A DNA stretch of 14,451 bases from Candidatus Zhuqueibacterota bacterium (GTDB lineage Bacteria > BS750m-G25): positions 1 to 14,451 of the forward strand of contig JADHWK010000054.1 of the NCBI GenBank assembly GCA_016783505.1. Reading direction: 5' to 3'. This document shows, piece after piece, positions 10,039 through 14,451 of this stretch; position 1 is the stretch's first letter; each line of letters opens with the position of its first letter. A program made the translations under genes and the position numbers. Under the pieces are notes generated by a model. That model did not search any database and was not told the DNA's origin. It saw only the letters and a list, made by a program, of their open reading frames with translations.

Positions 10039-10608
10039 AACAATTCCTTTCCTCTTTTACACCTCACCAACATTTACTATTACCATTGGCGAGGTAGGTA
10101 GTTCAAAGCGATTCAAAAGAGAACAAATTTTGAGATATTTTTAAAGATGCAAAAGTTTTTTCACTTTTTTACCCCGAGTTGAAACTGGTTAGGCACAAAA
10201 CCTTTTGAAAGTCAGGGGACAACAAGGTCCATGATTTTTTCGTTGATAATATATCAACAAAAAACCCCATCCAGTCTTTCCGAACCATCAGGGGTCAAGA
10301 ATTTGTAGTTGGCATTTCATGGGAAAAAAAAGCTCCCTGAAAGCTTTAGCTGGGGAAACTATTTCGGTTGGCAAACCAAGAATAGCCCTATAACAAGTAA
10401 CAGCTTAACAGAGGTAGTCTTTAAGAGGCTAACCAGTTCAGAATCAAGTTCCGTTGAATCTGGTTTACCATCAATAGTTTAATGAATTAATTTTTAATAG
10501 TCAAGAAAATAATTCATAAAATTGGATTTTTGGTTATTTTTTTCTATTGCTTAATTGTTTCTTTTTCTTTATATTTTTTCAATTATTTTAACTAATTCCA
10601 GAGGAGAG
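10039..10608. other. 570-base non-coding region with repeats and an AT-rich palindrome
   Basis: No gene is supported on either strand. It separates divergent genes, so both promoters should lie here. It contains an interrupted palindrome at 10235-10264 (TTTTTT-C-GTTGATA, loop ATA, TATCAAC-AAAAAA). It also holds three versions of a GTTGAANCTGGTT-like motif: direct near 10179, inverted near 10429-10443 and direct near 10453. AACTGGTTAG (10183-10192) is matched exactly by its inverse at 10429-10438. A 24-codon frame at 10319-10393 (containing SLKALAGETISVG) recalls the start of polysaccharide flippases but is too short to call. The right end is very AT-rich. Confidence 0.4.
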
Positions 10609-11865
10609 ATGGTAGCCTTACGACATCGCTTCCTTAAATGGTACCTGTTGTTGACCTTGCTGGTTATGATGGGCGGTTGCCTGTATGCGGATTATCAATT
10701 CCTGGGCAACGTCCAATCATATAAGCGGGTCAAGTATGGGATTCTCCTTGAGTGCGATGGGGCAAGGGTCTTAATATCGGTTTTGGCCCCGGATCTGATC
10801 CGGGTTCGACTGGCCCCGGAGGGGACATTTCTTGGGGGATGTTCTTATGCAATGGCTAAACAGGATTGGCCCCCCACCGATTCTTCAGTTAAGGAAGAAG
10901 AACAGGAAATTATCATTACGACTACAGAACTTTCTTTACGGATTGCCAAATCCCCCTGCAGGCTGGGATTTTTTGATCGGGACGGTGACTTGATCAATAA
11001 AGACCATGATGCCTTTGGCATGGGCTGGGACGGCCAGAGAGTCATCTGTTACAAGAGAAGACTAAAGGATGATGTCGGGGATGAAAAGTATTACGGGCTG
11101 AGTGAGAAGACCCGAGGGTTTGAGAAGTAGGGAAACCTCTACACTATGTGTAACTCGGACATTCCGGGCTATGATTACCGTACCGACCCCCTCTATCAGT
11201 CTATCCCCTTTCGGGAAAAGGAGATCCCCTGCGACGTCCTCTACTTAGACATCCACAACATGGACGGGTATCGGGTGTTCACCTGGGACCCGGTTCGCTT
11301 TCCTAAACCGAAGAGGATGCTCTCCGATCTGGAGAAGATGGGCTTTAATGTGGTGGTGATCATTGATCCCGGGATTAAGGTTGATCCCGATTATTGGGTC
11401 TATCAAGAGGGTATAGGGGGGGACTACTTCTGCAGCTATCCCGATGGAAAACCGTTCTCGGGGGAGGTCTGGCCGGGGGAATGCCACTTTCCCGATTTTT
11501 CTTCCCCCGCGGTCAGGGAGTGGTGGGGTGGGCTATACAAGGGGCTCATCGCCCAGGGGGTGGACGGCTTCTGGAATGACATGAACGAGCCATCCGTGTG
11601 GGAGGGAACGTTTCTGGAAGTGGTCTTGCACGATGATGGGGGCCGTGAATCGAGCCATGCCAGGGTTCACAATGTCTACGGGAAGCTGATGGCCCGGGGG
11701 ACGTATGAGGGTATGCGTAAGCTTAGCCCCGATCACCGGCCTTTCGTGCTGACGCGGGCCGGCTTTGCCCGCACCATTGACGCCCGGATCAAGACCACCT
11801 GCCTGGTCTGTCCCCCCGATGACCATCCGGAGGACGTGTGGTGTGCGTGGGAATTTATGATTTAG
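10609..11865 (+). pseudogene. Degraded GH31 alpha-glucosidase-family lipoprotein gene
   Basis: The start is ATG 10609, placed by a strong GAGGAG site at 10601-10606. The head is a lipoprotein-like signal (LLLTLLVMMGGC, Cys24), then the GH31 N-terminal beta-domain to KYYGLSEKTRGFEK. There the frame meets TAG (11128-11130) and continues in the same frame with GNLYTMCNSDIPGYDYRTDPLYQSIPF. At about 11209 it jumps straight to REKEIPCDVLYLD. By comparison with the family as I know it, some 90 residues are missing there. The barrel then continues through VIIDPGIKVD and GFWNDMNEPS, whose Asp (codon 11578-11580) is the GH31 nucleophile, to FVLTRAGFA. The last ~30 residues are unrelated to the family and a stop follows at 11863. 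The acid/base region and all C-terminal domains are gone, so the enzyme must be inactive. Three independent lesions make a pseudogene far more likely than amber readthrough. Confidence 0.85.
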
Positions 11866-11951: not shown

Positions 11952-12782
11952 ATGTTCTGGGATCAACTCATAGAGGTAGCTCGCCAACAACAGTTACCCC
12001 TCGCTACCGTAATAACCGAACTTCTCCATACGATTATTCTAAATGTTCTTTATTCCCAGGAGGAAAGCCTGAATCTGGTCTTTCAAGGGGGAACGAGTAT
12101 CCACCTTTTGCACGGGGGGTACCGATACTCCCAAGATTTGGATTTTGCCGGAGGGGAAATGTCAGGGGAGAAAATCGAAAAGCTGATGCAGAAATCCAGA
12201 TCCCAGATCGAAAAGTGGATCATTCAATGCCTGGGAATGGGAAAATGTGAATGGAAGCTCCCCAAAAAGGGGAATAAACAACGTATGTTTTCCTGGTGGC
12301 TTTTCTATCGAAAGAATGGTGAGAGGCGTCCATATAGGATTAAAATGGAATTCACGACCTGTCCCGTCTATCAGATTCAAATAATGCCCATTCGTACCGA
12401 ATATGGGTTACCCTTCCCTTTACCCCTAATCAATGGATTGGGTCCCGTGGAGCTGTTGGCGGAAAAGATCAGCGCCATTGCCGGACGCCCTTTTATTAAA
12501 GGGAGGGATTTTTTTGATTTGTGGTTTCTTAGTGAAATAAAAAAGGCCGCACTCAATTTTAATTTGGTACAAAAGAAATTCAATGATTATCAGACGCCCG
12601 ATCCCATCGGTCGCCTGCAAAATCGGATGACACAATGCGGGGTCGAGAATATTTGGATAGAAATGAGTCAATCTTTACCGGTGCGATACCGCCGCCAATT
12701 TGAAAAAAACCAATATCAAGACATTCTGAAAACTTCAAGGAAAATTATTAAGAGTGTCCTACGGACATTGGGTACAAATTAA
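11952..12782 (+). CDS. abiEii: AbiEii/AbiGii-type nucleotidyltransferase toxin (type IV toxin-antitoxin system)
   Basis: The 276-residue protein shows the motifs of AbiEii toxins, members of the DNA polymerase beta-like nucleotidyltransferase fold. QGGTSIHLLHGGYRYSQDLDF (residues 45-65) combines the GG(T/S) loop with the metal-binding Asp62/Asp64. RIKMEF (129-134) has a conserved Lys and Glu, and ELLAEKISA (167-175) and GRDFFDLWFL (184-193) complete the pattern. Family toxins are thought to transfer nucleotides to RNA or other acceptors (tRNA for some relatives) and halt growth, giving abortive phage defence or plasmid maintenance. GGAAACAGG just upstream is the ribosome-binding site. The partner antitoxin gene follows after 37 bases. 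This order, toxin before antitoxin, is the reverse of classical abiEi-abiEii. All catalytic motifs are intact, so it is probably functional. Confidence 0.9.
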   Translation: MFWDQLIEVARQQQLPLATVITELLHTIILNVLYSQEESLNLVFQGGTSIHLLHGGYRYSQDLDFAGGEMSGEKIEKLMQKSRSQIEKWIIQCLGMGKCEWKLPKKGNKQRMFSWWLFYRKNGERRPYRIKMEFTTCPVYQIQIMPIRTEYGLPFPLPLINGLGPVELLAEKISAIAGRPFIKGRDFFDLWFLSEIKKAALNFNLVQKKFNDYQTPDPIGRLQNRMTQCGVENIWIEMSQSLPVRYRRQFEKNQYQDILKTSRKIIKSVLRTLGTN

Positions 12783-12819
12783 ACCATTTTTATTGATCTT
12801 TCCAAATCTAGGATAGAAT

Positions 12820-13407
12820 ATGGGTGGCAAAATTTTTACCCAAACCAAATGGATTGAGGAATTACGGAAAGGTAGGCCCGTTTTTTCGCTACCCGAGTTG
12901 GTTCGCATTACGGGACTACCCCCTGCTTCGGCCCGGCGAGCGGTTTCCAGATTGGTAAAAAGGAGATTTCTGATCAAGTTATCCAAGGGACTATACGGCA
13001 ATGCCTTTGCCCATCTAAGCCTGGAACAGGTGGCGGGGATGCTTTATCCCCCAGCCTATATTTCTGTGGAAAGTGCCCTTTTCACGCACGGTGTGATAGA
13101 TCAGACGCCCCACATAGTCACCTGTATAACTCTCAACAAAACAAAAACCTTCCGTACGGCTTTGGGGGAAATTTTGTATTATCATATCAAGTCCGGACTC
13201 TTCTTCGGGTTTCACCCCCAGGATGGGCTTGTCCTGGCAGGACCAGAAAAAGCGGCCGCGGATTATGTATACATCAAGCGCCAGAACGGCTTGTTCCCCG
13301 ACCTAGATGAATGGAACTGGGGGAATTTGGATCTATTAAATTTAAGGGAAATCCTGAAATCCTATCCAAAATCGGTCGAAAAACATATCATGGAATTTGC
13401 TCATTGA
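12820..13407 (+). CDS. abiEi: AbiEi-type antitoxin/transcriptional regulator
   Basis: The 195-residue protein has a winged helix-turn-helix at residues ~20-60 (FSLPELVRITGLPPASARRAVSRLV, then a basic wing KLSKGLYG). It continues with the AbiEi-typical PPAYISVESALFTHGVI (77-93) and a C-terminal domain of mixed strands and helices. In the family the N-terminal domain binds the operon promoter and represses it, while the C-terminal domain neutralises the toxin without a stable toxin-antitoxin complex (type IV). The start ATG 12820 has only a modest AGGATA site and lies 37 bases after the toxin stop, so both genes share the promoter near 11885. Being downstream of its toxin is unusual. A MITE-like element begins two bases after its stop codon. 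Confidence 0.85.
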   Translation: MGGKIFTQTKWIEELRKGRPVFSLPELVRITGLPPASARRAVSRLVKRRFLIKLSKGLYGNAFAHLSLEQVAGMLYPPAYISVESALFTHGVIDQTPHIVTCITLNKTKTFRTALGEILYYHIKSGLFFGFHPQDGLVLAGPEKAAADYVYIKRQNGLFPDLDEWNWGNLDLLNLREILKSYPKSVEKHIMEFAH

Positions 13408-13408
13408 G

Positions 13409-13552
13409 TCGAAAGGTAACAGTTCAGCCACAGAGACACCAAGACACTAAGGAGTAATTTGTTACTGCATAGTTGCAGAATCAGAAAAAAAACTGATTGC
13501 TGAACGCTCGTTTAGTTCCATGATATTCTGTGGTAAACTGTTACATCGAAAG
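13409..13552. mobile_element. MITE-like element with terminal inverted repeats and 7-base flanking direct repeats
   Basis: GTAACAGTTCAGCCACAGA at 13417-13434 is matched in inverse by 13527-13544 (TCTGTGGTAAACTGTTAC, one small gap). The ends are flanked on both sides by TCGAAAG (13409-13415 and 13546-13552), as expected for a target-site duplication. The element proper is about 130 bases and encodes no protein. It has a small inner hairpin (ATCAG, A-run, CTGAT, near 13480-13497). The CCACAGAGACACCAAGACAC stretch is of a kind I recall as dispersed in other environmental genomes, though I could not search. It needs a transposase in trans. It fills the space between abiEi and galT. Confidence 0.7.
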
Positions 13553-13574
13553 AATCGCTAATTGGAGATAGGTC

Positions 13575-14451
13575 ATGCCAGAATTTCGTCAGAATTTAGC
13601 TACTAAGGAGTGGGTTATAGTGGCTACCGAACGGGCCAAGAGGCCCCAGGATTTTCAGAAAAAGGGGGAGGCCCCCCCCTTTTTGCCCCCCCACAAGCCC
13701 AACTGTCCTTTCTGTATTGGCAACGAAGAACAAACCCCGCCGGCCGTTTTCACAATTACCAGAGACGGCCGCTGGGGGGTGAGGGTGGTGCCCAACAAGT
13801 TCGCCGCCCTCAAGCCCGACCTGGCCACCACCCGGACTAACGTCGGTAAATTTCTTCAGGCCAAGGGGTTCGGGGTGGCCGAGGTGATCATTGAAACTCC
13901 GGAACACCATAAGACCATTGCCACCCTGTCGGAAGGAAAAGTGGAGGACGTGCTCCAAGCCTATCAACATCGCTATCTTGAAATTTCGAAGGTTGATAAG
14001 GTGAACCTGATTACCATCTTCAGAAATTTCGGGGTTCGGGCCGGGACATCACTGGAGCATCCTCATTCCCAACTCATCGCTACCCCCATCGTCCCCCCCC
14101 ACGTGCGCGACCCCTTCCGGCAGGCGATGCTGCATTATGACGAGCATGGCTCCTGCGTCTACTGTGATATGGTTGCCGAAGAATTGCGACAGGGGGAGCG
14201 GATCGTTTTGGAATCAGAGCATTTTGTGGCCCTCTGCCCCTTTGCCGCCCGGACGCCTTTTGAAACTCGGGTGTACCCCAAGGCCCATAAGGCTAGTTAT
14301 GGTTCCATCAGTGAAGATGAGAGGGGCGATCTGGCCGGGCTGTTGAGGGCGGTGATGGGGAAACTGCGCACCGGATTGGGAAATCCAGACTACAACTATA
14401 TTATCCGTTCTTCCCCCATCGGTGATGAAAACGTGCACTACTTACACTGGT
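13575..14451 (+). CDS. galT: Galactose-1-phosphate uridylyltransferase (3' end outside window)
   Basis: The frame is open from ATG 13575 to the window edge (292 complete codons) without a stop. GGAGATAGG (13564-13572) is a good ribosome-binding site. The product starts MPEFRQNLATKEWVIVATER. It has a zinc-type Cys pair CPFC (Cys44, Cys47), VVPNKFAAL (71-79) and the active-site NFGVRAGTSLEHPHSQ, where His162-Pro-His164 carries the nucleophilic His that becomes uridylylated. A second Cys pair CVYC (194-197) and YPKAHKA follow. This is the GalT branch of the HIT superfamily: it exchanges UMP between UDP-glucose and galactose-1-phosphate in the Leloir pathway. Some relatives use ADP-glucose instead. 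Length so far fits a ~330-350 residue enzyme lacking only its last part. It may share a sugar-use theme with the dead GH31 gene upstream. Confidence 0.93.
   Translation, partial: MPEFRQNLATKEWVIVATERAKRPQDFQKKGEAPPFLPPHKPNCPFCIGNEEQTPPAVFTITRDGRWGVRVVPNKFAALKPDLATTRTNVGKFLQAKGFGVAEVIIETPEHHKTIATLSEGKVEDVLQAYQHRYLEISKVDKVNLITIFRNFGVRAGTSLEHPHSQLIATPIVPPHVRDPFRQAMLHYDEHGSCVYCDMVAEELRQGERIVLESEHFVALCPFAARTPFETRVYPKAHKASYGSISEDERGDLAGLLRAVMGKLRTGLGNPDYNYIIRSSPIGDENVHYLHW

Follow-up and report, generated by a model that had tools for sequence, protein, structure and literature searches.

A 129-base stretch between galT and an abiEi-like antitoxin gene is a genuine small non-autonomous transposable element (MITE), one of many in its genome. 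It lies in the window (the whole 14,451-nucleotide stretch analysed here, contig JADHWK010000054.1 of a Candidatus Zhuqueibacterota bacterium) and is probably a transposon (13416–13544, forward strand) that was inserted between the two genes after mobilisation in trans by a DDE transposase of the IS66 family. The element is delimited by its ends, its flanking duplication, and its fold, and the list of open reading frames in the window contains none of 80 or more codons within it. The left terminal inverted repeat, GTAACAGTTCAGCCACAGA (13416–13434, forward strand), was recognised by inverted-repeat alignment; the right one, TTCTGTGGTAAACTGTTAC (13526–13544), reads GTAACAGTTTACCACAGAA on the reverse strand. 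Both ends start with GTAA (GTAACAGTTCA on the left, GTAACAGTTTA on the right), and the first 11 bases of the left repeat, GTAACNGTTCA, constitute the family signature. Aligned with the reverse complement of TTCTGTGGTAAACTGTTAC, GTAACAGTTCAGCCACAGA matches in 17 of 19 columns, the other two being a mismatch and a gap, confirming the repeats of 18–19 bases with a single gap described in an earlier sequence-only reading.

That reading also reported identical 7-base flanking repeats, TCGAAAG, and both copies are present (13409–13415 and 13546–13552), but the duplication is really 8 bp long with one mismatch. The left copy, GTCGAAAG (13408–13415), and the right copy, ATCGAAAG (13545–13552), differ by one substitution (7/8 identical), and both abut the ends of the MITE directly with no spare base. 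The span first proposed, 13409–13552, thus captured the right locus, but the element proper is the 129 bp at 13416–13544. Its placement directly behind the antitoxin stop codon (TGA at 13405–13407, with the duplication beginning at 13408) and 22 bases ahead of galT (ATG at 13575) was correct.

The evidence from this one site within the window is modest. An equally good inverted match between the two halves of the abiEi-galT gap arose in 2 of 2,000 dinucleotide-preserving shuffles, and 660 further 167-bp stretches from elsewhere in the window contained no comparable match. The decisive evidence is a family-wide test for 8-bp duplications in the genome to which the window belongs (as contig C70), an assembly of 2.51 Mb in 89 contigs that is 59.9% complete. 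The analysis covered this genome through searches and through individual stretches surrounding the repeats. A BLAST search of this genome with the MITE returned 12 matches at E ≤ 0.001, and a search with the left-arm consensus returned 31 at E ≤ 10. The end GTAACNGTTCANNC, with at most one mismatch, occurs at 75 places, compared to 31 for a reversed-pattern control, and many such ends are convergent and 90–510 bp apart. For the duplication test we took 40 stretches around these ends and picked convergent pairs by their match to GTAACNGTTCA alone, ignoring the flanks; in the 27 pairs obtained, we compared the k bases immediately before the left end with the k bases immediately after the right end, for k from 3 to 14. 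Direct-repeat identity at k = 8 was 0.657; permuted pairs gave 0.349 ± 0.033, none of the 2,000 permutations reaching the observed value, and k = 8 was the only peak, with a weak shoulder at k = 9. The flanks agree at seven or more of eight positions in 15 of the 27 pairs; for the 12 that lack such a duplication we offer decay, wrong pairing, or deletion as explanations.

A second pass, in which slightly weaker ends were allowed but a duplication of at least 7/8 was required, gave 17 elements of 92–514 bp, the window copy among them, with duplications that include CAAAAATT, ATAGATTC, GATTGAAT, AAATCGAA, GATATAAG, and AAGAAGAG. In the 15 strong pairs, the target sequences that were duplicated are 76% A+T, compared to 56% for the whole window. 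The peak at k = 8 and the 8-bp duplications across the family indicate transposition with an 8-bp stagger. The MITE identity originally proposed is thereby supported, and the genome search suggested along with it recovered dispersed copies rather than a lone sequence conserved at this locus in distant relatives. Two larger candidates were rejected: a 2.1-kb region with two convergent arms (L261), considered as an autonomous copy, has no standout transposase open reading frame and no duplication, and two of its reading frames resemble ordinary cellular genes; and at the convergent ends 1.4 kb apart (C28:8325 and C28:9713), the flanks compared by eye share only some 5 of their 8 bases.

An IS66-type transposase is the likely driver because ends beginning with GTAA and 8-bp duplications characterise IS66; for this genome, the assignment is inferred. 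IS66 elements generate 8-bp repeats and have 20–30-bp ends beginning GTAAGCG (PMC11946415), and IS66 ends GTAACCGTCCGGGCA are also recorded (PMC12888890). IS66 elements in other genomes carry ends that match those of the MITE family (GTAAC[CT]ATTCAGC, and GTAACCGTTCACCC), and the complete ones are flanked by perfect 8-bp duplications. One genome (G046) has several IS66 copies with ends GTAACCATTCAGGGGG and GTAACTATTCAGGGGG (the left end also being given as GTAACCATTCAGGGGGG, paired with GTAACTATTCAGGGGG) and perfect duplications such as CATGATTC. The Desulfobacteraceae MAG CSMAG_1163 contains a complete single-gene IS66 element (L348) with ends GTAACCATTCAGC and GTAACTATTCAGC and duplication GGATTTTT, its gene lying on the reverse strand of the stretch as identified with Pfam, and it also holds MITEs of the GTAAC-ended family; a copy from the window's own genome that we compared with these ends (C3:54325) starts GTAACTATTCAGCC. 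In the Nitrospinae MAG RIFCSPLOWO2_12_FULL_45_22, GTAACCGTTCACCC precedes an IS66 gene and also begins the MITEs, so that a single genome holds both an IS66 element and MITEs sharing its first 14 bases; GTAACCGTTCACCCGGC is found at one MITE end, and two of the three copies read have perfect 8-bp duplications (AATTAATT and AAGAAAGA).

The window MITE therefore resembles IS66 elements, including the single-gene, ISBst12-like ones, in its GTAA ends and 8-bp duplication, and its outer 11–14 bases are nearly identical to those of three of them (L080, L091, and L348). It differs in being 129 bp long and gene-less, whereas IS66 elements are about 1.5–3 kb and carry a gene, and the end shared by the MITE family (11–16 bp family-wide, a gapped 19 bp at the window, and about 11–14 bp with the IS66 elements of other genomes) is shorter than the 20–30 bp usual for IS66. 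The transposase with matching ends that the sequence-only reading had suggested looking for was found only in part: IS66 elements with near-identical ends are present in other genomes, but the IS66 transposase domain (PF03050) has no match in the window's own assembly, which is about 60% complete. Assemblies this incomplete often miss multi-copy elements.

We consider it unlikely that another, undescribed transposase family drives this 8-bp-duplicating MITE and that its GTAAC ends are coincidental. This alternative would account for the missing IS66 gene, absent both from the window's assembly and from 27 of 36 carrier genomes (the remaining nine have an IS66 match), and for the shortness of the match to any single IS66 element, about 11–14 bp. 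However, ends of the type GTAAC.[AG]TTCA together with exactly 8-bp duplications occur on bona fide IS66 elements, and one genome has IS66 and MITEs sharing their first 14 bases. Under the IS66 model, the MITE would hold only what the transposase requires, ends beginning GTAACAGTTCA, and its interior would be passive. An IS66-family DDE transposase acting in trans, now or in the past, would pair the two ends, mobilise the DNA between them, and insert it at cuts staggered by 8 bp, with repair giving the duplication; a single such insertion into a 30-bp abiEi-galT gap would have duplicated 8 bp of target to give GTCGAAAG and ATCGAAAG.

The interiors of the family are unusually varied. Of the 136 pairings among the 17 elements, only 12 show similar interiors (E ≤ 0.001), and the window copy shares its interior with none of the other 16. 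Its nearest siblings by BLAST (C83:10802–10867, 80% identical over 66 bp, and C79:3577–3601, 96% over 25 bp) look decayed; both share the inner stretch around ACTGATTGCTGAACGCTCGTTTAGTT (13488–13518, forward strand). The inner arm of the window copy (13428–13451, forward strand) consists of iterons of about 8 bases, CCACAGAGACACCAAGACACTAAG, a word of the CACNNAG type, and its agreement with the pattern CCACNRAGRCACNRAGRCACNRAG is complete over the 21 positions scored. Words recurring in the interiors include CACNNAG iterons, GCTGATTGCTGAACGCT, TTGGATAATTGGATAG, CCCGAAATATCGGG, and CCCCGTCATTC/GAATGACGGGG, and the CACNNAG-type word occurs at about 20 further places in the same genome and also in other phyla. 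Five GTAAC-ended loci in this genome (L192, L199, L204, L206, and L221) have palindromic CCCGAAATATCGGGA interiors, some with CCCCCTTTATTAAAGGGGGG, and three others (L194, L212, and L226) have palindromic CCCCGTCATTC...GAATGACGGGG interiors. GTAAC-type ends apparently accept nearly any short interior, in most cases a palindromic one, and the varied interiors suggest that mobility needs little beyond the outermost bases.

The inner-arm word, of the CACNNAG (CACAGAG) type, is also found in unrelated genomes around GxxExxY genes (TIGR04256), which have inverted arms on both sides, each of about three iterons of 8–10 bases. In the window's own genome, a GxxExxY gene at C51:25404–25724 (within C51:25354–25900) has arms CCACGGAGGCACAGAGACACGGAG, and the arm words differ between genomes, with CCGCAGATTACGCAGATTACGCAGATT, CCACGGGGAACACGGGGAGTCACGGGG, and AACAGGGATATACAGGATGAACAGGAT seen elsewhere (L133–L161). 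Complementarity between upstream and downstream flanks is significant at 23 of 27 GxxExxY loci, compared to none of 28 galT control loci, and among the first 98 genomes, GxxExxY is present in 6 of the 7 that have CACNNAG arms versus 21 of 98 overall. These cassettes have no GTAAC ends and no consistent target duplication, which led us to reject the GxxExxY protein as the mobiliser of the window MITE. Gene-less, arm-only hairpins of about 70 bp, arranged as TTAACCACCAAGGCACCAAGACACCAAG, a loop, and the reverse complement, occur in many genomes (L105–L108, L110, L121, L123, L124, and L130, near position 1500). In the literature searched, no paper described inverted iteron arms around GxxExxY genes. 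GxxExxY with its arms has the appearance of a mobile cassette not yet described, or of a nuclease that brings along arms for its own recognition; possibly it is another type of mobile unit, from which the IS66-ended MITEs captured their arms. The iteron arms are a lead on the role of this widespread, unexplained gene family.

That the inner arm is of the iteron type flanking GxxExxY genes, and that arm-only hairpins occur elsewhere, could suggest that the window element is a REP/BIME-type or GxxExxY-associated palindrome that spread without target duplication and acquired its GTAAC ends secondarily. We regard this as improbable, since GTAAC-type ends occur together with an 8-bp duplication in the window copy and in 16 further elements, whereas GxxExxY cassettes do not consistently duplicate their targets. 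The inner arm may instead be a captured module, with the GTAAC-ended unit being the one that moved here. REP/BIME palindromes and RAYT-linked repeats are palindromic, present in many copies, and located between genes, and the window MITE is likewise palindromic, multicopy, and intergenic; unlike it, REPs lack fixed-length target duplications and DDE-type ends.

The window MITE is also comparable to MITEPsy1, which is derived from ISPsy2 and makes 4-bp target duplications (PMC3189936), and to MITECca01, derived from ISCca4 (PMC9769881). All are short, gene-less, and multicopy, with terminal inverted repeats, and are thought to be moved in trans, but the window MITE has 8-bp duplications and GTAAC ends in contrast to the 4-bp duplications of MITEPsy1, and its family shares almost only the ends, the interiors differing greatly.

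The family extends well beyond this genome. The combination of GTTCAGCCAC followed by CACNNAG iterons was seen in named genomes at no fewer than 115 stretches. Most of these belong to Desulfobacterota, with further carriers among MAGs labelled Nitrospinae, Cloacimonadota, Calditrichaceae, Latescibacterota, Spirochaetaceae, Aerophobetes, Bacteroidetes, Scalindua, and Nitrospira; GTAA precedes most of the examined GTTCAGCCAC stretches. In named genomes of other phyla, flank identity again peaks at k = 8, with 10 of 26 pairs agreeing at seven or more positions. Distant BLAST against a plasmid collection gave no match. A class of short repeats that recurs in environmental genomes of several phyla is explained by the GTAAC-ended MITE family, and GTAAC.GTTCA ends with 8-bp duplications provide a search rule for such MITEs. 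More tentatively, and with the balance of probability against it, these elements could belong to one system spanning several phyla, with IS66-type ends of only about 11–16 bp around palindromic interiors that can be exchanged. The CACNNAG class would be a second, undescribed mobile hairpin, usually found beside GxxExxY nuclease-like genes, and the MITEs would then combine two mobile systems unrelated to each other.

The abiEi-galT gap spans 167 bp (13408–13574) and would be 30 bp without the MITE and one 8-mer, so the insertion lengthened it from 30 to 167 bp. It broke no coding sequence: the stop codon of the upstream gene (12820–13407, forward strand) directly abuts the left duplication, and the putative ribosome site of galT, GGAG at 13565–13568, lies outside the MITE and is intact. 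The galT gene itself, coding for galactose-1-phosphate uridylyltransferase (13575–14451, forward strand), extends past the end of the window. The whole MITE folds as a single long imperfect hairpin (z of −5.2 on the forward strand and −6.2 on the reverse), and a transcript across abiEi and galT would be predicted to gain a stable long hairpin. This strong fold just upstream of galT is what might be expected of a functional RNA or DNA hairpin (an attenuator, a terminator, or a galT regulatory leader) that mimics a transposon, but we find this very improbable. A covariance-model search of the MITE against Rfam gave no match at E ≤ 1, scans at the MITE found no promoter or terminator pattern and so lent no support to the effect on galT suggested in the sequence-only reading, and copies reside at many unrelated sites, with interiors that are not conserved and with 8-bp duplications across the family. 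Nor was the MITE found beside galT in other genomes, where the compared loci are distant (mostly 30–55% protein identity, the relatives belonging to the same domain only) and lack the arms apart from weak matches at two of them. A chance inverted repeat beside a chance 7-mer, for which the modest shuffle statistic alone would leave room, has a negligible probability and is refuted by the genome copies and the family-wide duplications.

The upstream gene codes for a 195-aa protein that is abiEi-like by position; a profile search matched an HTH profile only, with no AbiEi match. No named relatives of this antitoxin were found. It is preceded by a gene for an AbiEii-type nucleotidyltransferase (PF08843), the two occupying 11952–13407 in what we take to be the reverse of the usual AbiE gene order. 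Directly upstream of the AbiEii-like gene, a GH31 glycosidase gene (10555–11865) appears broken, with an N-terminal domain (191 aa) and a TIM-barrel part (239 aa) in two open reading frames that end before the barrel is complete.
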